A DNA stretch of 34,022 nt from Candidatus Bathyarchaeota archaeon (lineage in GTDB: Archaea; Thermoproteota; Bathyarchaeia; RBG-16-48-13; GCA-020355125), in contig JAOZHB010000039.1 in assembly GCA_026015035.1 (NCBI GenBank), forward strand, positions 1 through 34,022. Reading direction: 5' to 3'. The position numbers were made by a program, and so were the translations under genes. The notes beneath the pieces are model-generated. The model did not search any database. It was not told the origin of the DNA and worked only from the letters and a program-made list of their open reading frames with translations. Positions 8,218-30,834 of this stretch are shown here, one piece after another (position 1 is the first letter of the stretch; each line of letters begins with the position of its first letter).

Positions 8218-10086
8218 TTATTTTCGTCTCATTGATCCGAATACTTGTTCAAGATGTTCTATACCAAGTCGTTTTAAGGTTCTTCGCCGTGGTATGCCTT
8301 GTTCGTCCCAACCCAAGCTATTGTAGTACTTCTTTTTGTCTTTCAAGACTTGCTCCCGATCTGTGGTCACTCCCTTCAAAGGACCTGACGGTAGGGGTTC
8401 GTAGAAACGAGGAGGATTATCGTCGTCTTCTGCGCTCCATACGTGGTCAGGACCACTCACCAAAAGAGAGGCTCTCTGGATTGCTAGCATTCTTGGACCC
8501 ATACTTCTGTACCAGTCGTTTGCTGTGATGTCCCATCCTGTAACTGATCTAAGCATCCCCCACATTGGTGCTAGGTTGTCTTCGAAGATGTTGAATCCGC
8601 AGATTACAGCTGAGTCACCGAAGCCCCATAGAATATCGCCCGCATTCTTGTTCGGGGCCATACCTCCACATGACGTGTGATCAGAGCCTTGAACGGACGT
8701 CGCATAGGCAATTATTGGTTCATAGTCTAAACCACTTCGAGTTCCATGAGCGCCTATAGCCATTCCCTTTACGTGGACGACATAAGGCATTAGGTCTATT
8801 CCTTTCATTTTTCCTATCTTAATGGCAGCCCTATATGTCCCCTCTGCCAGGATGTCCCCAACTCCCTCTCTTTTAGCAATCATCTCTGCGAGCTTTCCAA
8901 AGGCTTTTGCGTCTCCCCACTCCAATGGAAAACCGATGTCTTCTAGTGTAAGCACTCCTCTTTGGTATAATTCTCCTGCAAAGCCTAAAGCACTTCCTCC
9001 TTGAATCCCGCAGAGACCCATGTCATCGCCTATCGCTGCAACATATACGTTTCCTTCAGGCTCAAAAATACCTAGATTTGTACCCATGTAAGCTTGGATT
9101 TCGTAGTCCGGGTTATCTGTAATAGCTCCTTTAAACACTCCCTCGGTTATTGCTGAGACTTTGAGACACGTAGTCGGACAACCATAGTCTCCCCAGTACC
9201 GTTTCACCCAAACTTTCCGTTCGAATTCATCGACTCCAAAGCTTCTCTCATCATGCCACTCCTCCTGCCAGTTCCTCACCGGCTCTGAGGAGGTTCCAGC
9301 ACCCACTTCATAGCCAGCAGCACCTGTACCCCATCGTCTCATGCTATCGTTTTTTAAACAGCTCTGCGTAATTTTCGTAAGGTATTGAAGAGTTTTTTTC
9401 ATATCGAATGGTGCTGGAACGGGACCTGTTCCTTTAGCTACAACGGCTTTCAAATTCTTCGATCCCATGACTCCTCCATAACCGCCATACCCTGCACCAT
9501 GCGTCCACTTCATCATGACCGCGGCGAGTCTAGAAAGATTCTCTCCAGCGGGACCAATGTAGAGAATTCCAGGCTCTTTCCACATTCGCTCTTTTCCACG
9601 TCTATCGTCAAGGCTGTCAATCACTTCTTTGTTTATCATTCGAATGGTCTGTTTGCCATCCTTTCCCCAGAGATGGCGCGCGTCTTTTATCTCGGTAGCT
9701 CCGTCTTCGATATATATGTACACGGGATTATCGGCTTTTCCTGTGACGGTTACTCCATCATATCCAGCGCATTTCAAGTCGATGGGGAACTCCGCGGCAA
9801 CCGTTGAACCGATTATGCTATTAGTTAAAGGGGATTTACCTGATACACAAGCCCTCATTCCGGGGTAATACCCTGTTAAAGGCCCAGTATAAATAGTTAA
9901 AATGTTTTCAGGACCTAAAGGATCCACTTCACCCCATTTGATTCCCAGTCGATCCCAAAGGATCTTCGCAGCAAGCGCTCGCCCTCCAAGGTATTTTCTT
10001 AGAATGTCTTCTTTCACCGTAACATCCTTGCACTCGTTGGAGGTAAGGTCTACCTCTAGGAACTTACCTGCATAACCTCCTGCCAT
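8218..10086 (-). CDS. tungsten-type aldehyde:ferredoxin oxidoreductase, variant cluster motif
   Basis: 622 aa, full length for the AOR family, which oxidises aldehydes to acids with a W (or Mo) bis-pyranopterin and one [4Fe-4S] cluster. N-terminal GYAGKFLEVDL, GPLTGYYPG, KSPLTNS, and MGSKNLKAV mark AOR domains 1-2. The cluster motif, normally CxxCxxxC, is D300-Y-G-C303-PTT-C307, so the first ligand is Asp. The late Cys is probably C496 in AVICGF. TAA of the upstream ferredoxin gene overlaps the ATG (TAATG), so they are co-translated. Substrate unknown; the 4-cluster partner recalls AorA/AorB modules. Confidence 0.9.
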   Translation of the reverse strand: MAGGYAGKFLEVDLTSNECKDVTVKEDILRKYLGGRALAAKILWDRLGIKWGEVDPLGPENILTIYTGPLTGYYPGMRACVSGKSPLTNSIIGSTVAAEFPIDLKCAGYDGVTVTGKADNPVYIYIEDGATEIKDARHLWGKDGKQTIRMINKEVIDSLDDRRGKERMWKEPGILYIGPAGENLSRLAAVMMKWTHGAGYGGYGGVMGSKNLKAVVAKGTGPVPAPFDMKKTLQYLTKITQSCLKNDSMRRWGTGAAGYEVGAGTSSEPVRNWQEEWHDERSFGVDEFERKVWVKRYWGDYGCPTTCLKVSAITEGVFKGAITDNPDYEIQAYMGTNLGIFEPEGNVYVAAIGDDMGLCGIQGGSALGFAGELYQRGVLTLEDIGFPLEWGDAKAFGKLAEMIAKREGVGDILAEGTYRAAIKIGKMKGIDLMPYVVHVKGMAIGAHGTRSGLDYEPIIAYATSVQGSDHTSCGGMAPNKNAGDILWGFGDSAVICGFNIFEDNLAPMWGMLRSVTGWDITANDWYRSMGPRMLAIQRASLLVSGPDHVWSAEDDDNPPRFYEPLPSGPLKGVTTDREQVLKDKKKYYNSLGWDEQGIPRRRTLKRLGIEHLEQVFGSMRRK

Positions 10087-10634
10087 TAGATCAACTCCTT
10101 TGCGGTGTCACCATATAAACGATATGCCAAATCCGATGTCACCTTATCAGGCGTCTTCGCATAAAGCCTATAGGAAACGGATGTGTTGGACGTCGATCTG
10201 TCAACCACCCAGAGAGTGCGATATCCTCCTTCTTCGCAAGCCTTCGCGCATTCTGGATCCCCCTCACATAAGTCGCATATCGTTGCCTTGTTGGTAACCG
10301 GGTGAAGAAACGGCACCTTGCCAGGACAAGCGTTTAGACAGTTACCACAACTTGTGCAGGCTTCATCGTCAACTGTGATTGCGCCTGTATTGGTATTCCA
10401 ACTCAACGCGTTCACTGGGCAACTTGGTATGCAAGGAGCGTCTTCGCACTGAGCACAAAGATGTGGCACCTCCAAGGTAGGAACAAGCATAAACACTCTG
10501 ACCCTTGAAGCTGCAGGCCATATCTTTCCCTCATGTTTAATGGAACAGGCAACTTCGCACCTCCTGCAACCACTACAGTTCACGTAGTCCCTTGCAATCC
10601 ATACAGGTTTTTGTGTCGAGGACATACAAATCAC
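10086..10634 (-). CDS. four-cluster ferredoxin-like iron-sulfur subunit of AOR
   Basis: About 179 aa from ATG 10625; an upstream GTG at 10634 is also in frame. Sixteen cysteines form four [4Fe-4S] sets: CSGCRRCEVAC (from residue 17), CAQCEDAPCIPSCP, CTSCGNCLNACP and CDLCEGDPECAKAC. This is the HycB/DmsB/AorA type of electron-transfer subunit. It overlaps the AOR by one base and probably moves electrons from the AOR cluster to ferredoxin or another acceptor. The C-terminal 40 residues after the last cluster are not recognised. No flavin subunit (AorC-like) is adjacent. Confidence 0.88.
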   Translation of the reverse strand: MICMSSTQKPVWIARDYVNCSGCRRCEVACSIKHEGKIWPAASRVRVFMLVPTLEVPHLCAQCEDAPCIPSCPVNALSWNTNTGAITVDDEACTSCGNCLNACPGKVPFLHPVTNKATICDLCEGDPECAKACEEGGYRTLWVVDRSTSNTSVSYRLYAKTPDKVTSDLAYRLYGDTAKELI

Positions 10635-21651: not shown

Positions 21652-21692
21652 GCAAATCGTGTATATTTTCTAACTTTTCGGAGAGATTGATT

Positions 21693-23486
21693 TTGGGCGG
21701 ATACATCGGTAAAATTTTGAAGATAAATCTCACATCAGGAAAAATCAAAGAAGAAACTCATGGCGAAGCTTTCTACAGGAAATGGCTAGGTGGATATGGG
21801 CTTGGTTCCAGAATTCTCTACAACGATATTCCAGCTAACACCGACCCTTTAGAACCTGAAAACGTCGTTGGATTAACTACAGGTATCTTGACAGGAACTC
21901 TTGCCCCTTTCAGTGGGAGCTTCACAGCAGTCGGAAAGTCACCGTTAACAGGCACTTGGGGGGACTCCCGAGGAGGGGGATTCTTTGGTCCGGAACTGAA
22001 ATACGCGGGATTTGACGCCGTTTTCTTCCATGGCCGATCTCAAAAACCGGTGTATCTTTGGATAAAAGACGGTGAAGCAGAGATAAGGGATGCGTCAGAT
22101 GTTTGGGGAAGAAATGTCAACGACACTGAAGCAATTCTCAAAGAGAAGCATCAAGACAAAAGGGTACAAGTAGCCTGTATTGGGTCATCTGGGGAAAAAC
22201 TCTCTTTAATATCGGCGATCATGACAGATGAAGGGCGTGCAGCGGGTCGACAAGGCTTAGCCGCGATTATGGGGTCAAAGAAGGTAAAGGCCATTGCGGT
22301 GAGGGGACGAGGAAGAATACCTGTGGAAGACATGGACCAAGTCTTGGACTTTCGAAAGAAAGTTCTGGATGCCATGAAGAAAAACCCCATGTACGATAGG
22401 TTTTGTAAGTATGGAACTACAGGTGGGACAGCAGCCTCAGCTATCAGCGGTGACTCTCCTGTGAAGAATTGGAGTGGTGTTGGTAGCGAGGACTTCCCCA
22501 CGGCGGAAAAGATCGGTGGAGACAGCGTAATCAAGTATGATATAGGACCGTATGGTTGCTTTGGCTGTCCCGTCGCCTGCGGTGGCCTCCAAAGGGTTGA
22601 AAGCGGACCCTATACCGTTGAGGGACATAAACCCGAATACGAAACCCTTGCCGCCTTTGGCACAATGTGTCTCAACGACAACGTGGAATCAATCATTTAC
22701 CTCAACCATCTGTGCAACAATTATGGTTTGGACACCATATCCGCCGGAGGCACCATCGCCTTCGCCATCGAGTGCTACGAGAAGGGCATTATATCGAAGG
22801 ATGAAACAGACGGCATCGCGTTGAAATGGGGAAACCACAAGGCTATCGTTGAGATGACGGAGAAACTTGCCAAACGGGAAGGATTCGGAGACATCTTAGC
22901 CGACGGTGTAAAAGTAGCTGCAGAGAAGATTGGTAAAAGCTCCAAGAAATATGCAATACATGTTTGCGGTCAAGAGTTACCAATGCATGATCCCAGGGAT
23001 GTCCATAATCCCTACAATAAAAAAAATGCCCTCATGTATGTCGCCGACGCTACGCCAGCCAGGCACACCCAAAGCCCCCATGACGGATTCGCCTTACAAG
23101 CTACAGGCATATGCAGTTTCGGGGGCTTCTTGGGACGCGGCGGCGAGGGCGTACCCCAACTCACCGATTTCATCAACGCCATCACAGGCTGGAGTATAAC
23201 TACTTCGGACATGCGAGACATTGGCGACCGAATTGCCACGATGAGGCAGGCATTCAACATTCGAGACGGCTTAAAACCATCGGACTTCACATACCCCGAT
23301 CGAGTCTTAGGAAAACCCCCACTGACGTCCGGACCATCGGCGGGTGTAACGATCGAGAAACAGGTCAATTTACAGGTCGAGGAATACTTCAAGTCCATGG
23401 ACTGGGATCTCAAGACAGGAAAGCCGCGGAAAAAGAAGCTGATAGAGCTTGGATTAGAAGACGTAGCAAGCGACCTCTGGGGATAA
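21693..23486 (+). CDS. tungsten-type aldehyde:ferredoxin oxidoreductase, second copy
   Basis: 597 aa from TTG 21693, chosen because GGAGAG (21680-21685) is 7 nt upstream; TTG 21687 is too close. The start GGYIGKILKINLTSGK matches AOR. Domain 1 shows GILTGTLAPF, GKSPLTGTWGDSRGG and MGSKKVKA. The cluster motif is complete: C289-FG-C292-PVA-C296, with a late Cys in TGICSFGG. It would oxidise an aldehyde to an acid and reduce ferredoxin. Unlike the 8218 gene it has no adjacent ferredoxin subunit, so it may act alone like hyperthermophile AOR. The two enzymes are only moderately similar. Confidence 0.9.
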   Translation: MGGYIGKILKINLTSGKIKEETHGEAFYRKWLGGYGLGSRILYNDIPANTDPLEPENVVGLTTGILTGTLAPFSGSFTAVGKSPLTGTWGDSRGGGFFGPELKYAGFDAVFFHGRSQKPVYLWIKDGEAEIRDASDVWGRNVNDTEAILKEKHQDKRVQVACIGSSGEKLSLISAIMTDEGRAAGRQGLAAIMGSKKVKAIAVRGRGRIPVEDMDQVLDFRKKVLDAMKKNPMYDRFCKYGTTGGTAASAISGDSPVKNWSGVGSEDFPTAEKIGGDSVIKYDIGPYGCFGCPVACGGLQRVESGPYTVEGHKPEYETLAAFGTMCLNDNVESIIYLNHLCNNYGLDTISAGGTIAFAIECYEKGIISKDETDGIALKWGNHKAIVEMTEKLAKREGFGDILADGVKVAAEKIGKSSKKYAIHVCGQELPMHDPRDVHNPYNKKNALMYVADATPARHTQSPHDGFALQATGICSFGGFLGRGGEGVPQLTDFINAITGWSITTSDMRDIGDRIATMRQAFNIRDGLKPSDFTYPDRVLGKPPLTSGPSAGVTIEKQVNLQVEEYFKSMDWDLKTGKPRKKKLIELGLEDVASDLWG

Positions 23487-23941: not shown

Positions 23942-25387
23942 CTATATGTTTAAACCGATGTCTCGAAGGTAGTTCCTGGCCTTTCGCTCACCCTTGATGT
24001 ATTCTTCAGTTGGAGTCTGCATGTACCAGTCATACGCTTTCAACCCCGCTGCTAAAAATTCAGTCGGGTGTTCCCCGTAGATGTGCATTCGTTGATCTTG
24101 ACGGACAGGTTGAAGGGGGTGATCCACGAGCCTTTCCTTACTAACTCTTTCGGAGAGTTCGACGAAGTCCTCCAGCCTGAGATTGGATTTAAGAGTGGCA
24201 TCAGACGTCTCGATCACCCAATTCGTATGGGTGGGGGGGTTCGTCGCTCCAACCCTGAAGTTAAGTCCAAGTAGAGTACTCCTTATAGACGACAGGGCTA
24301 CCCGCAACAGGTAGGGCTCCGACGTCATGTCGTAATAAATCCGGTTCCATCCCCATATCCCTGTATAGTAAATTTGATTCGTGTTCTTGCGAAGTGCCTT
24401 CTGGACGGCGAAGGACCGCCACTGCATCCCCTCAACATCACGTGAAGGCCCCTGAGGATGAACGACTTCTGCCTTTCTTGGCAGGAAATCACCTCCTGCG
24501 GAGGCTCCTCCTATCCCGATGATGGTGTCGCGATACACCAGCCAGTTGGCCAAACACCCCACCGTCGACTCGATCATACGGCCCTCCACACTCCCGCCCC
24601 AGGGGCCAGCCCCCGATCCCCCGCTTAACCCGAAACACCCTAACTCGTGATAGATTTGGGCCGCACCGATGAGTTCTTCCTCCACCATGAGGTCGGGTAG
24701 AATCGTGAAGAAGCCGCCGTCACTCGTCCGCAGCCCCCGCTCGGTATCCAATGGCGCCAGCATCGAGAACGCGTCCGTCAACACCGGATAATAGGCGATT
24801 GCTAACCCACTACGACCCGCCATCGCCAAGCCCTCCCGCACCTTCGCAACCGCCCGCCGCGCCGCGTACGCCCGCGAGGCCATCGTGTGGACCTCCCATC
24901 CATCGATCCGCGCATACATGAAGCCTTCAATCAGATCCACGCGCTCATGTCGCACCAGCTCCCGCACAATGATGGGCAGCGGGATCAGCGCGTCCGACCA
25001 GGGGCCGTGACCCGTCACATTGATGCCCGGGGGCCTGCGGTCCCCGATGTCCTGCGTCCGCCACACGCGTTGGTCGCGGCCCCTGCCAATCTTGATCTCG
25101 GACGGGTTTTCTCTCAACGCGTCTCGCACTTCGTCTTCGGTGAACGTGATCGTCCGGTGGGTGTGGGTGCAGTACACGCCCAGTTCGCCGAGGAGGTCAA
25201 CCGCGGCTTGAAACAACGCGTCAGTATACGCGTCCTCCACCTCGTAGAACCGTTCGGGGCCTTCCTGTTGCAAGTCATGTCTCGCGATGAGTTCTTGCAG
25301 CTTTTTGAAGAGGGCGAGTCCCCACTCCTTGTCACTCAGTTTGCGTCCTGTACGCGCCCGTTCCGCAACCTCTAACAGACTGATCAT
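23942..25387 (-). CDS. MtmB-family (monomethylamine methyltransferase) homologue without pyrrolysine
   Basis: 481 aa from ATG 25387 (GAGGTGA 8 nt upstream); GTG 25399 adds four residues. Compared with my recollection of Methanosarcina MtmB, matches include GVYCTHTHRTITFTEDEV near the N-terminus, AMAGR, and the C-terminal TPTEEYIKGERKARNYLRDIG. MtmB carries pyrrolysine at residue 202, read through UAG. Here the aligned site in AGRSGLAIAYYP is Ala202 (GTG numbering; 198 from ATG), and no in-frame TAG occurs. It is therefore a TIM-barrel methyltransferase of altered chemistry or substrate, as MtgB is to MttB. No corrinoid protein or RamA gene is nearby. The 5' half is much more GC-rich than the 3' half. 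Confidence 0.8.
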   Translation of the reverse strand: MISLLEVAERARTGRKLSDKEWGLALFKKLQELIARHDLQQEGPERFYEVEDAYTDALFQAAVDLLGELGVYCTHTHRTITFTEDEVRDALRENPSEIKIGRGRDQRVWRTQDIGDRRPPGINVTGHGPWSDALIPLPIIVRELVRHERVDLIEGFMYARIDGWEVHTMASRAYAARRAVAKVREGLAMAGRSGLAIAYYPVLTDAFSMLAPLDTERGLRTSDGGFFTILPDLMVEEELIGAAQIYHELGCFGLSGGSGAGPWGGSVEGRMIESTVGCLANWLVYRDTIIGIGGASAGGDFLPRKAEVVHPQGPSRDVEGMQWRSFAVQKALRKNTNQIYYTGIWGWNRIYYDMTSEPYLLRVALSSIRSTLLGLNFRVGATNPPTHTNWVIETSDATLKSNLRLEDFVELSERVSKERLVDHPLQPVRQDQRMHIYGEHPTEFLAAGLKAYDWYMQTPTEEYIKGERKARNYLRDIGLNI

Positions 25388-25544
25388 CTTTCTTCTCACC
25401 TCAAACCATTAAGATGGGTCATTTAATGCGTTTCTAGAGTATCTATTCACTATTTTTATTTAAAACATACCCTCGAGGCCATATTTCCATGCGATGGTCA
25501 ACATAACGACGATTTATCCAGACTGTGAAACAGTTTGTAAGTAG

Positions 25545-26801
25545 TTAGCTATCCAAGGAGGTGTTTCTTGTTGGGGGCTTGACTGGAAGAATTGTTGCAG
25601 CGGAAACGCACATACTGATCCCCAGAAAGATGAGAGTGGCGGAATAGTTACCTGTTAACTCGGTTAGGTATCCCCCAATCAGTGGGAGTAATCCGCCGCC
25701 AACCGCACCTGTGAAGAAGATGACTCCAAAGAGAGACGGCCCATACTTGGACCCAAAGTAGTCCGCTACGATCGCGGCGTACTGTTCTGGGAGACCCCCA
25801 TAAGTCACACCGTAAAGGGTTGCCCACGCGTACAAGAGGGTGATGTTGGGCGGGATCATGGTTGATGCGAAGATCGAGACTGCAATTCCCGTGGCGCACA
25901 CAAGTATTGTATGCTTTCTGCCAATCATGTCAGATACAATGCCGAAGATAAAGCTTCCAACCGCACTCATGACCCCTATTATGCCAAATGCGGATGATGC
26001 AAGTAACGGGTCGATCCCCAACCTAATGATATGTGGAACCACAAACGTGAGTAACGATATAATGCTGCCTACCGTAAAGAAGTAGGATACATTGATCAGC
26101 TTGTAAACGTCGGTCGCTACCGCCTCTCGCACCGTCCAATCATTCTTCGTTTCCAGTGCGATCTGACCTTGCAATGGCTTGCCACCATCCACCTCTAATC
26201 CGATCGACTGGGGGCTGTCACGGAATATTAGGTACCCTAGAAAGCACACAACCACTATGACCAGGGCTCCCAAAACGACGTATGTCAAACGCCAACCATA
26301 GGTGACTATCAACCAAGCAGCAAAAGGCACTAGAATCGCCTGTCCTAAGCTGATCCCGATGCTCGACCAGCCAATAGCCTTTCCTCTGTCCTTCAGGAAG
26401 AACTTCGCGAGAATCATGTTTGGAAGTATGTAAAGGATTGATGCTCCTGTGGCGGCTATCACGCCCCAAGTAACGTACAATTGCCACAATTCATTTACTA
26501 AGGATGAGAGGACGCCGCCAGAGCCCAGGAGGAGTCCACCTACGAGTATGGATTTCCTTCCACCAATCTTGTCCAATAATCTGCCGACGAACACCCCCGA
26601 TACGCCATAAACCCAAAAGAATATCGTGACCACGCCAGCAGTCATTGCTTCCGTCCAACCGAATTGGGCTTGGAGGGGTACGAAGAATACACCCATTGAG
26701 TATCTTAAACCATACATGAACAAGTAGGTTAGAACACTCATGATGAAGATTATCCACCCGTAATAGATGGGGAGCCTTCGGTAGATAGTATCTCGGGGCA
26801 T
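25545..26801 (-). CDS. MFS transporter, monocarboxylate/oxalate-formate antiporter-like
   Basis: 418 aa from ATG 26801 (GGGAGATGAG just upstream); the frame extends to 26846. It has twelve predicted helices. The N-terminal GWIIFIMSVLTYLFMYGLRYS and GVFFVPLQAQFGW segments, then GRLLDKIGGRK in the first cytoplasmic loop, are typical of the oxalate:formate antiporter/monocarboxylate branch, often carriers of organic anions. The middle loop is hydrophilic (about residues 200-225). It lies upstream of the MtmB-like gene on the same strand (146-bp gap), making joint function possible. Confidence 0.82.
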   Translation of the reverse strand: MPRDTIYRRLPIYYGWIIFIMSVLTYLFMYGLRYSMGVFFVPLQAQFGWTEAMTAGVVTIFFWVYGVSGVFVGRLLDKIGGRKSILVGGLLLGSGGVLSSLVNELWQLYVTWGVIAATGASILYILPNMILAKFFLKDRGKAIGWSSIGISLGQAILVPFAAWLIVTYGWRLTYVVLGALVIVVVCFLGYLIFRDSPQSIGLEVDGGKPLQGQIALETKNDWTVREAVATDVYKLINVSYFFTVGSIISLLTFVVPHIIRLGIDPLLASSAFGIIGVMSAVGSFIFGIVSDMIGRKHTILVCATGIAVSIFASTMIPPNITLLYAWATLYGVTYGGLPEQYAAIVADYFGSKYGPSLFGVIFFTGAVGGGLLPLIGGYLTELTGNYSATLIFLGISMCVSAATILPVKPPTRNTSLDS

Positions 26802-26896
26802 CTCATCTCCCGCTTTATCAGCCTTAATACTGCATCCAAAACTCAAACATGGGGGTTTCTAATAACTTTTAGCTAGTTACGCTAGATGGGGAAATA

Positions 26897-28431: not shown

Positions 28432-30834
28432 ATGGAGATCAAGATAGTTGAGCAGTTGCCCGTAAACGTCCTTAAGGATCTGCGACTGCGTTCTCGAAGC
28501 GGACGAGTTGAACGGCTTTATGCCGTACTCCAAGAGCGTATGACTAGGACACAGAAGAGCTGGGGCAGCAACCTCACGGTACTCGAAGACCCGTCTACGG
28601 CTCAACTGCCCTTTGTGCTTCGCCGCGCTAAAGCGTTCGAGAAGGTTCTTTTAGAGATGCCTATCGACATCGAAGAAGACGACCTCATTGTCGGAAATAC
28701 TGTGGAGGACGGAGTTATCATCCGTGTCGGTCGGCCTAAGTACGCAACGGAAGAAGAGCGAGAAGCTTACGAAAGTTCCCTCACCGGTACTCAACGGAGT
28801 CAGTTAGAGACGGGTTTAGCCCACAAGACGCCGTACTACTCGGATGTTCTAGAGAAGGGGCTTTTGGGCGTCATCGCTCAAATTGACGCTAAGATCGTCG
28901 AGATCGCCAGTCGCCAGTCATCCGAAGAGCGAGATGCAAAGGTGGCCCTATTCCAGGCGATGCGCCTTGAATGCCAGGCGGTTATCGCGATGGCTAACCG
29001 GTATGGCGATTTAGCCCAAACGCTTTCAATCAGGGCCAGCAGCCCTCAGCGGCGTGACGAGCTTCTTAAGATAGCCGAGGTCTGTCGTCGCGTGCCCGAG
29101 TTCCCCGCTTCGACGTTCCACGAGGCAGTGCAGTCCTTCTGGTTCATCCATCATGCTTTCCGCGCCTCAGGAACCGGAATTTCCTTGGGCCGCATCGACC
29201 AATTCCTCTATCCCCATTTAAAGAGGGAGTTAGATGAAGGAGAGATCACCTTGGAGGAGGCGCAAGAGGCTATCGACTGCCTTTGGCTTCGCTTCAACGA
29301 CCGCGCCCAGATATGCCGGGAATACTTTTTCTCGGATACTGCTGAAAACCTGCGTAAGAAGCTCGTGCCATCGGGTACAGGGGGAGATCTGGAGACGCCT
29401 GGCCACCGCACTCGTCCCTTTTCCGAAGCTGACCGCGCATCAAACCACATGGGGCAGAACCTCCTTCTCAGCGGCATTCGACCCGACGGATCCGATGGGA
29501 CAAACGAACTCACCTATGTCTGTCTCAATGCCTTGGAGAAGTTCGCCTTAACTCAACCGGTTGTTTCCGTGCGTCTCCACAAAACGTCACCCCACGACTT
29601 GATAATTCGAGTGGCGGAAGTCCTCAAGAAAGGGGGAGGTCAGCCCTTCATCGACAACGATGACGTTCTCATTCAAGGCTACTTTGATCTGGGGGTGCCC
29701 CTTGAAGACGCCCGCGACTACGCAAACTCCAACTGCTGGGAGACCATGATCCAGGGCAAGTCCGACCAGGAGCTGATTCGGGGCATAAATTTCCTCTTGT
29801 GGCTTGAACTAGCCCTGAATAGAGGGGTCTCACGAGTTAACGGCAGCCAAGTAGGCTTGGACACTGGAGACCCCCAGAAATTCGAGGCTTTCCAGGGATT
29901 GATGGACGCTTGGAAGGCCCAGACGGACTACCAGCTCCAGCAAGCCATCGATTACATTGGAGGGGGCGTCGTGAACGGAACGCTTGAGCACAGCGGCCAC
30001 GGCAAATACTGTTATAACCCGTTGCTCTCAGCCCTCACTCGCGACTGCATCGAAAACGAGAAGGATTTGATCCGGGGAGGCGCCCGCTACACGATCTGGC
30101 ACGTAATGGGAGAGGCCCTTGCAAACTCCATCGACGCCATGGCGGCCGTCAAGAAGATGGTGTTCGAGGACAAGACGGTGACAATGGAGGAGCTGCTGAC
30201 CGCGCTCGAAGCTGACTGGGAGGGCTTCGAAAACCTCCGCCGACGAATAGTATCCAAGATACCCAAGTTCGCCAACGACGATGACTACGCTGACGACATC
30301 GGACGGGAGATGATGGACTACTTCTTGGACAGAAGTCGGTTCCACGCAAAGAGGTATCCGACGATCATCTTCCCATGCTCCGTAGGCACATTCTCCTGGT
30401 ACTTCCAGATTGGGATGGAGGTGGGGGCGACGCCGGACGGACGTCACTCTCGCAAGGCCGTGGCAGCCAATTTATCTCCAGTGGTTGGAGCAGCCGGTTC
30501 GGGGCCTACGGCGGCGATACATTCCTACGTGAAGATGCGCGTTGGAGACTTGGCTGCGGGGGCGCCGATAGACTTACGCTTCTCCAAGGGTAGCCTGAAG
30601 GGCGAAGCAGGCACACAGCGGCTGGCAGGCTTCATCAAGGCGTTCATCGCGTTAGGGGGAAATATGTTAACGCTGTCGTTGACCGATGTCGAGGAATTGA
30701 AGCGGGCGATGAAGGAACCGGAGAAGTACAGGCATCTACGGGTTCGGGTGGGAGGGTGGACAGCGTATTGGGTAACGCTGAACGAAGAGTATCAACGCCT
30801 CCATATTCAAAGGGTTGAGCATGGGTTGGTTTGA
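28432..30834 (+). CDS. glycyl radical enzyme (pyruvate formate-lyase superfamily), unassigned substrate
   Basis: 800 aa, full length, with GGAGAG 5 nt before ATG 28432. The catalytic Cys is C435 in ANSNCWETMI, with the usual Glu two residues on (E437). The glycyl radical site is G775 in RVGGWTAYW near the C-terminus. The family makes a thiyl radical for C-C, C-N, C-O or C-S cleavage, including PFL, glycerol or diol dehydratases, choline TMA-lyase and decarboxylases. Cys-Trp-Glu, where choline TMA-lyase and glycerol dehydratase have Cys-Val-Glu, and GGW at the radical site set it apart from the enzymes whose motifs I remember, so the substrate is open. The required radical-SAM activase is not in the window. 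Confidence 0.88.
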   Translation: MEIKIVEQLPVNVLKDLRLRSRSGRVERLYAVLQERMTRTQKSWGSNLTVLEDPSTAQLPFVLRRAKAFEKVLLEMPIDIEEDDLIVGNTVEDGVIIRVGRPKYATEEEREAYESSLTGTQRSQLETGLAHKTPYYSDVLEKGLLGVIAQIDAKIVEIASRQSSEERDAKVALFQAMRLECQAVIAMANRYGDLAQTLSIRASSPQRRDELLKIAEVCRRVPEFPASTFHEAVQSFWFIHHAFRASGTGISLGRIDQFLYPHLKRELDEGEITLEEAQEAIDCLWLRFNDRAQICREYFFSDTAENLRKKLVPSGTGGDLETPGHRTRPFSEADRASNHMGQNLLLSGIRPDGSDGTNELTYVCLNALEKFALTQPVVSVRLHKTSPHDLIIRVAEVLKKGGGQPFIDNDDVLIQGYFDLGVPLEDARDYANSNCWETMIQGKSDQELIRGINFLLWLELALNRGVSRVNGSQVGLDTGDPQKFEAFQGLMDAWKAQTDYQLQQAIDYIGGGVVNGTLEHSGHGKYCYNPLLSALTRDCIENEKDLIRGGARYTIWHVMGEALANSIDAMAAVKKMVFEDKTVTMEELLTALEADWEGFENLRRRIVSKIPKFANDDDYADDIGREMMDYFLDRSRFHAKRYPTIIFPCSVGTFSWYFQIGMEVGATPDGRHSRKAVAANLSPVVGAAGSGPTAAIHSYVKMRVGDLAAGAPIDLRFSKGSLKGEAGTQRLAGFIKAFIALGGNMLTLSLTDVEELKRAMKEPEKYRHLRVRVGGWTAYWVTLNEEYQRLHIQRVEHGLV

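Follow-up and report, generated by a model that had tools for sequence, protein, structure and literature searches.

Simple methylamines are probably activated by pyrrolysine (Pyl), and primary amines need the Pyl adduct. It has been known for years that some members of the MtmB family lack Pyl (non-Pyl MtmBs). The first function demonstrated for one of them was published in March 2026, when MtqB of Methanococcoides methylutens Q3c was found to demethylate tetramethylammonium and choline; the accompanying MtmB-family tree comprised 1,061 sequences, most of which had no assigned function (PMC13044021). In Bathyarchaeia, pyl genes were reported in a representative in 2021 (PMC9723677), and mtmB-type genes were mentioned in a survey of the class (PMC8407382). 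The O-demethylase MtgB of Ca. Baizosediminiarchaeum, a protein of ~300 aa, was reported to lack homology to known MT1 methyltransferases, and MtgA passes its methyl group to tetrahydromethanopterin (H4MPT; PMC10989822). The gene described here was first seen in an earlier note, made from the DNA letters alone, as an MtmB homologue with Ala at the Pyl site. Its remark that non-Pyl MtmBs are far less described has been partly outdated by the MtqB study.

The window, which is the whole stretch of 34,022 nucleotides analyzed from a Candidatus Bathyarchaeota archaeon, encodes this protein on the minus strand (Table 1). The gene end given in the earlier note matched the ATG, which is preceded by GAGGTGAG and is the likelier start; the in-frame GTG is the possible alternative. 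The protein matched the Pfam family PF05369 (MtmB) over residues 8–254 with 83.8 bits (E 1.5e-23), well above the curated cut-off of 25 bits, and this profile search was the check that had been proposed. A single-sequence phmmer search of the PDB found only MtmB (1L2Q, E 1.8e-21). A profile of 19 relatives aligned with 1L2Q from one end to the other (E 2e-55; positions 9–472 of the profile against chain 13–457), and it matched 13 further homologues, aligned separately, with a probability of 100 over 441 columns. Because these profile alignments cover nearly the whole chain, the homology is full-length, although the Pfam match spans the N-terminal half alone. The dN/dS of the gene against its two closest relatives was 0.08–0.13, which shows purifying selection. 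The full-length profile alignment and the dN/dS together ruled out chance similarity or a frame error. An AlphaFold model whose input was two sequences, the window protein and L009, had a mean pLDDT of 32, too low to be of use.

Table 1. Features of the window around the MtmB-like gene.
Feature	Position	Strand	Basis or remark
Non-Pyl MtmB-family methyltransferase (predicted MT1-type)	25387..23942	minus	481 aa from ATG; PF05369 and 1L2Q profile match
Ala198 codon (Ala202 from GTG), in the Pyl202 column of M. barkeri MtmB1 and the UAG column of the G033 Pyl-MtmB	24794..24796	minus	alignments
In-frame GTG, possible alternative start of the MtmB-like gene	25399 (ORF 23942-25399, 485 aa, P0001)	minus	
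Shine-Dalgarno-like GAGGTGAG	25395..25402	minus	seven bases upstream of ATG 25387; sequence read
MFS carrier, upstream neighbour of the MtmB-like gene	25545..26846	minus	NCBIfam best matches L-lactate MFS and oxalate/formate antiporter, both below cut-off
Aldehyde ferredoxin oxidoreductase-type gene	8218-10634	minus	
Aldehyde ferredoxin oxidoreductase-type gene	21687-23486	plus	
Glycyl radical enzyme, PFL/glycerol dehydratase type	28432-30834	plus	NCWE replaces the usual GCxE-like motif

The Pyl site was lost in this protein. In the phmmer alignment to 1L2Q, residue X (Pyl202) faced the Ala of GLAIAYYP, and two MAFFT alignments assigned the Pyl column identically; the window protein has no in-frame UAG at this position. 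Another Bathyarchaeia genome, G033, encodes an MtmB with a single UAG that falls exactly in the column of the window Ala198, and the register of the Pyl column was therefore confirmed. The homology, the Ala at the Pyl202 site and the YCTHTHR...TEDE and TPTEEY blocks described in the earlier note were thus all borne out. Glu229, Glu259 and Gln333 of MtmB, which surround and contact the pyrrolysine ring in the MtmB structures, were aligned in the multiple alignment with Phe, Gly and Gly, respectively. Since these three residues were also replaced, the loss extends beyond a single codon to the entire Pyl environment. The Pyl-MtmB of G033 retained the HE, EQMP and NQYYP segments, in which the same three residues lie. 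Across the branch of the window gene the Pyl column was occupied by V, T, A, H, C or I, and Arg111, His131, Tyr204-Pro205, Thr208 and Tyr289 (GTG numbering) were fixed, unlike in MtmB1. These clade-specific residues show a diverged site. The gene is placed within the MtmB family and outside the monomethylamine methyltransferases (Pyl-type MtmB), as a further, divergent member of the known non-Pyl MtmBs.

In a maximum-likelihood tree of 37 rows, the 20 rows including the window gene were split from the rows including MtmB1 with a support of 100/100. Matches at E<=1e-60 were found in seven of the 257 genomes of the class, and among 398 genomes sampled across the phylum the window's own genome alone passed 1e-40. 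The branch of the window gene is well supported and, within the class and phylum genomes searched, was found only in Bathyarchaeia. A scan of genome contigs with the window protein alone returned one match (DAOVBJ010000059.1, 86% identical), and the viral contigs searched contained no relative. The nearest named relative was Candidatus Bathyarchaeota isolate CSMAG_1002.

The assembly comprises 2.06 Mb in 146 contigs and is 88% complete with 7.4% contamination, so that an absence from it is not proof. It contained ten matches to PF05369, and none of them had an internal stop. Contigs C73 (L041) and C139 (L042) were 93% identical along all of C73 and had the same gene order, which may reflect a segmental duplication or a bin that mixes two populations; the ten homologues are accordingly an upper bound for one cell. 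Eight PF02607 corrinoid proteins, one RACo, two MtrH matches and CdhD/E-type genes were also encoded. The corrinoid protein, RACo and methyl acceptor that a corrinoid-dependent MT1 system requires were thus all present at the genome level. The family searches found neither MCR nor MttB (PF06253) in the assembly, and for pylS they gave background matches alone, all below the cut-off, in these 88% of a genome. The statement in the earlier note that there is no corrinoid protein therefore held for the neighbourhood and failed for the genome, and the genome search that it had suggested recovered corrinoid proteins and RACo, with pylS absent. A genome of the same GTDB family without MCR (G003) carried PylS above the cut-off and 23 MttB matches, some of which were fragments and most of which had an in-frame UAG. 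It contrasts with the window's genus, which has neither PylS nor MttB.

Four of the ten MtmB homologues (C5, C73, C139 and C141) had an adjoining corrinoid gene. In C5 the two genes lay on the same strand and overlapped by 4 bases. Corrinoid genes also adjoined relatives in two other genomes, G001 and G007. No adjoining corrinoid gene was found at the window gene, at C27, C89, C133 or C42, or at the window gene's relative in G001; the C146 paralogue was truncated by the contig end. The four nearest relatives of the window gene with visible context (C27, C89, C133 and C73 of G001) all lacked one. The corrinoid-adjacent members lay deep in the window's branch, with C5 directly beside the window subclade. 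The C5 paralogue grouped with the window set at 99/97 and was 43% identical in the best alignment, and corrinoid dependence would therefore be expected by descent. The simplest reading would be that the window protein uses a corrinoid partner encoded in trans. Three of the remaining four corrinoid genes lay beside URO-D-type genes and one beside an unassigned gene, so the sharing of these proteins with the window protein is a conjecture. Corrinoid genes beside URO-D-family genes were seen on the G000 contigs C25, C68 and C40 (L066, L067 and L068), with a divergently placed MtrH gene on C40. These loci are possibly further methyltransferase systems.

The DNA of the window resembled that of C27 and of the G001 contig only as far as the gene boundaries, whereas C27 and the G001 contig had their flanks in common as well. 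The window copy thus sits away from the position common to its closest relatives, and the MFS and aldehyde-oxidoreductase neighbours therefore tell little of the substrate. The organic-anion MFS carrier pointed out in the earlier note does adjoin the gene, but it is weak evidence, since the neighbours are not conserved and the copy is off the shared position; in the relatives the pairing of the carrier with the MtmB-like gene was not conserved. One of the two aldehyde ferredoxin oxidoreductase-type genes was directly beside a ferredoxin-like gene, and the C89 paralogue also had such a pair nearby. The glycyl radical enzyme scored far below every NCBIfam equivalog cut-off, and a role for it with choline or hydroxyproline was therefore rejected. 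C27 and the G001 relative shared UxuA-like and SAF-domain genes beside the MtmB-like gene, and G001 had in addition a galactarate/altronate dehydratase-like gene. In the window's genome, each of the four window-set members had an MR_MLE dehydratase at a distance of at most about 9 kb. Near all ten MtmB homologues there were 4 against 1.7 expected (P 0.09); the test limited post hoc to the four window-set members gave P 0.01, and MR_MLE genes are frequent in this genome. A sugar-acid operon was thus not accepted as the explanation, because the proximity was within chance over all paralogues and the window copy lies outside the shared position; it was kept as a rival only.

Here, we favour the explanation, with a probability of roughly 0.6, that the window protein is a Pyl-independent MT1-type corrinoid methyltransferase whose partner is encoded elsewhere and whose methyl group goes to H4MPT. 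We infer both the methyl-transfer activity and the partner in trans, and the route and the substrate would be as follows. The methyl donor of the enzyme would be some small methylated compound, though not monomethylamine, and the acceptor would be the cob(I)amide of a corrinoid protein whose gene lies elsewhere in the genome. The RACo gene is present, and its product would hold the corrinoid in the reduced state. An MtrH-type protein, also encoded, could then move the methyl group to H4MPT, from where it might enter the Wood-Ljungdahl pathway (CdhD/E present). The substrate would already be activated for methyl transfer, as in a quaternary amine or possibly an O-methyl compound. Pyl might then be dispensable, because a methyl group that carries a positive charge or is activated in another way would not need the Pyl adduct.

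A narrower form of this explanation is that the protein acts like MtqB on quaternary amines such as choline, tetramethylammonium or betaines. It is possible, though well below even odds: the sole characterized non-Pyl MtmB does so (PMC13044021), and non-Pyl MttB with glycine betaine offers an analogy, but the window branch is deeply split from the MtmB1-like rows and has its own fixed residues, and no betaine or choline transporter was recognized among the annotated genes of the window. Somewhat less probable, and in our view unlikely, is that methyl transfer was abandoned and the barrel now serves another reaction or binding only. The lack of an adjoining corrinoid gene throughout the window subclade, the loss of Pyl and of all its contact residues at the aligned positions, and the divergent fixed residues would fit such a change. 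However, relatives of the same branch directly adjoin corrinoid genes, one of them nested beside the window subclade, a common core is kept across the paralogues, and the gene is under purifying selection.

We are more doubtful that the protein is an O-demethylase of methylated sugar acids or plant-derived methoxy compounds that feeds the acid to nearby dehydratases. The UxuA-like and SAF-domain genes common to C27 and G001, the dehydratase-like gene of G001 and the MR_MLE genes near all four window-set members agree with it, and other Bathyarchaeia O-demethylate methoxy-aromatics via an unrelated enzyme (PMC10989822). Against this stand the general abundance of MR_MLE genes and the position of the window copy outside the shared neighbourhood. 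No MtmB-family enzyme is known to act on C-O bonds. A broader proposal seems equally doubtful, namely that the bathyarchaeal Pyl-less MtmB branch turned to methyl donors of a new class (e.g., O-methyl sugar acids or plant-derived methoxy compounds), with several substrate-specific MT1s per archaeon sharing a corrinoid pool. Least credible by far is a true monomethylamine methyltransferase working without Pyl. Membership in the MtmB family speaks for it, but Pyl, Glu229, Glu259 and Gln333 are all replaced in the window protein and kept in the Pyl-MtmB of its class-mate.

Non-Pyl MtmBs are numerous, and a function has been demonstrated for one only. This assembly has about ten of them and belongs to a genus without PylS or MCR; in a relative of the same family, PylS and numerous MttB genes with a UAG are retained. 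The assembly therefore offers a compact natural set in which to ask what function an MtmB barrel serves when its Pyl site can vary, and it also bears on which methylated compounds Bathyarchaeia use.

Compared with MtmB1, the monomethylamine methyltransferase of Methanosarcina barkeri (PDB 1L2Q, 1NTH and 1TV2), the window protein is a full-length homologue with ~21% identity, which conserves GRxG just before the Pyl site and differs at Pyl202 and the three contact positions given above. The Pyl-MtmB of G033 (L073:9086-10477), from the same class and family, shared 57% identity with M. barkeri MtmB1, against only 22% with the window protein. It lay in a block (L073:3995-11235) with pylS above the cut-off and corrinoid genes, and a UAG-containing MttB was nearby; pylB, pylC and pylD in this block were read from the sequence, outside the family scan. 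MtqB and the window protein are both non-Pyl MtmB homologues and corrinoid-dependent MT1s, as predicted for the latter. However, MtqB has the assigned cognate corrinoid protein MtqC and feeds methanogenesis, whereas the window gene has no adjoining corrinoid gene and a non-methanogen host. By description, which is the only basis of this comparison, MtqB branches near the Pyl-MtmBs, whereas the window branch is well separated from MtmB1. MtgB of Ca. Baizosediminiarchaeum is also a bathyarchaeal corrinoid MT1, but it belongs to a different family. The glycine betaine methyltransferase MtgB is a non-Pyl MttB and thus a member of PF06253, a family without a match in the window's genome. The parallel that the earlier note drew with it was nevertheless supported, as both cases share the theme of a Pyl-less relative with a changed substrate, which is predicted here for the window protein.
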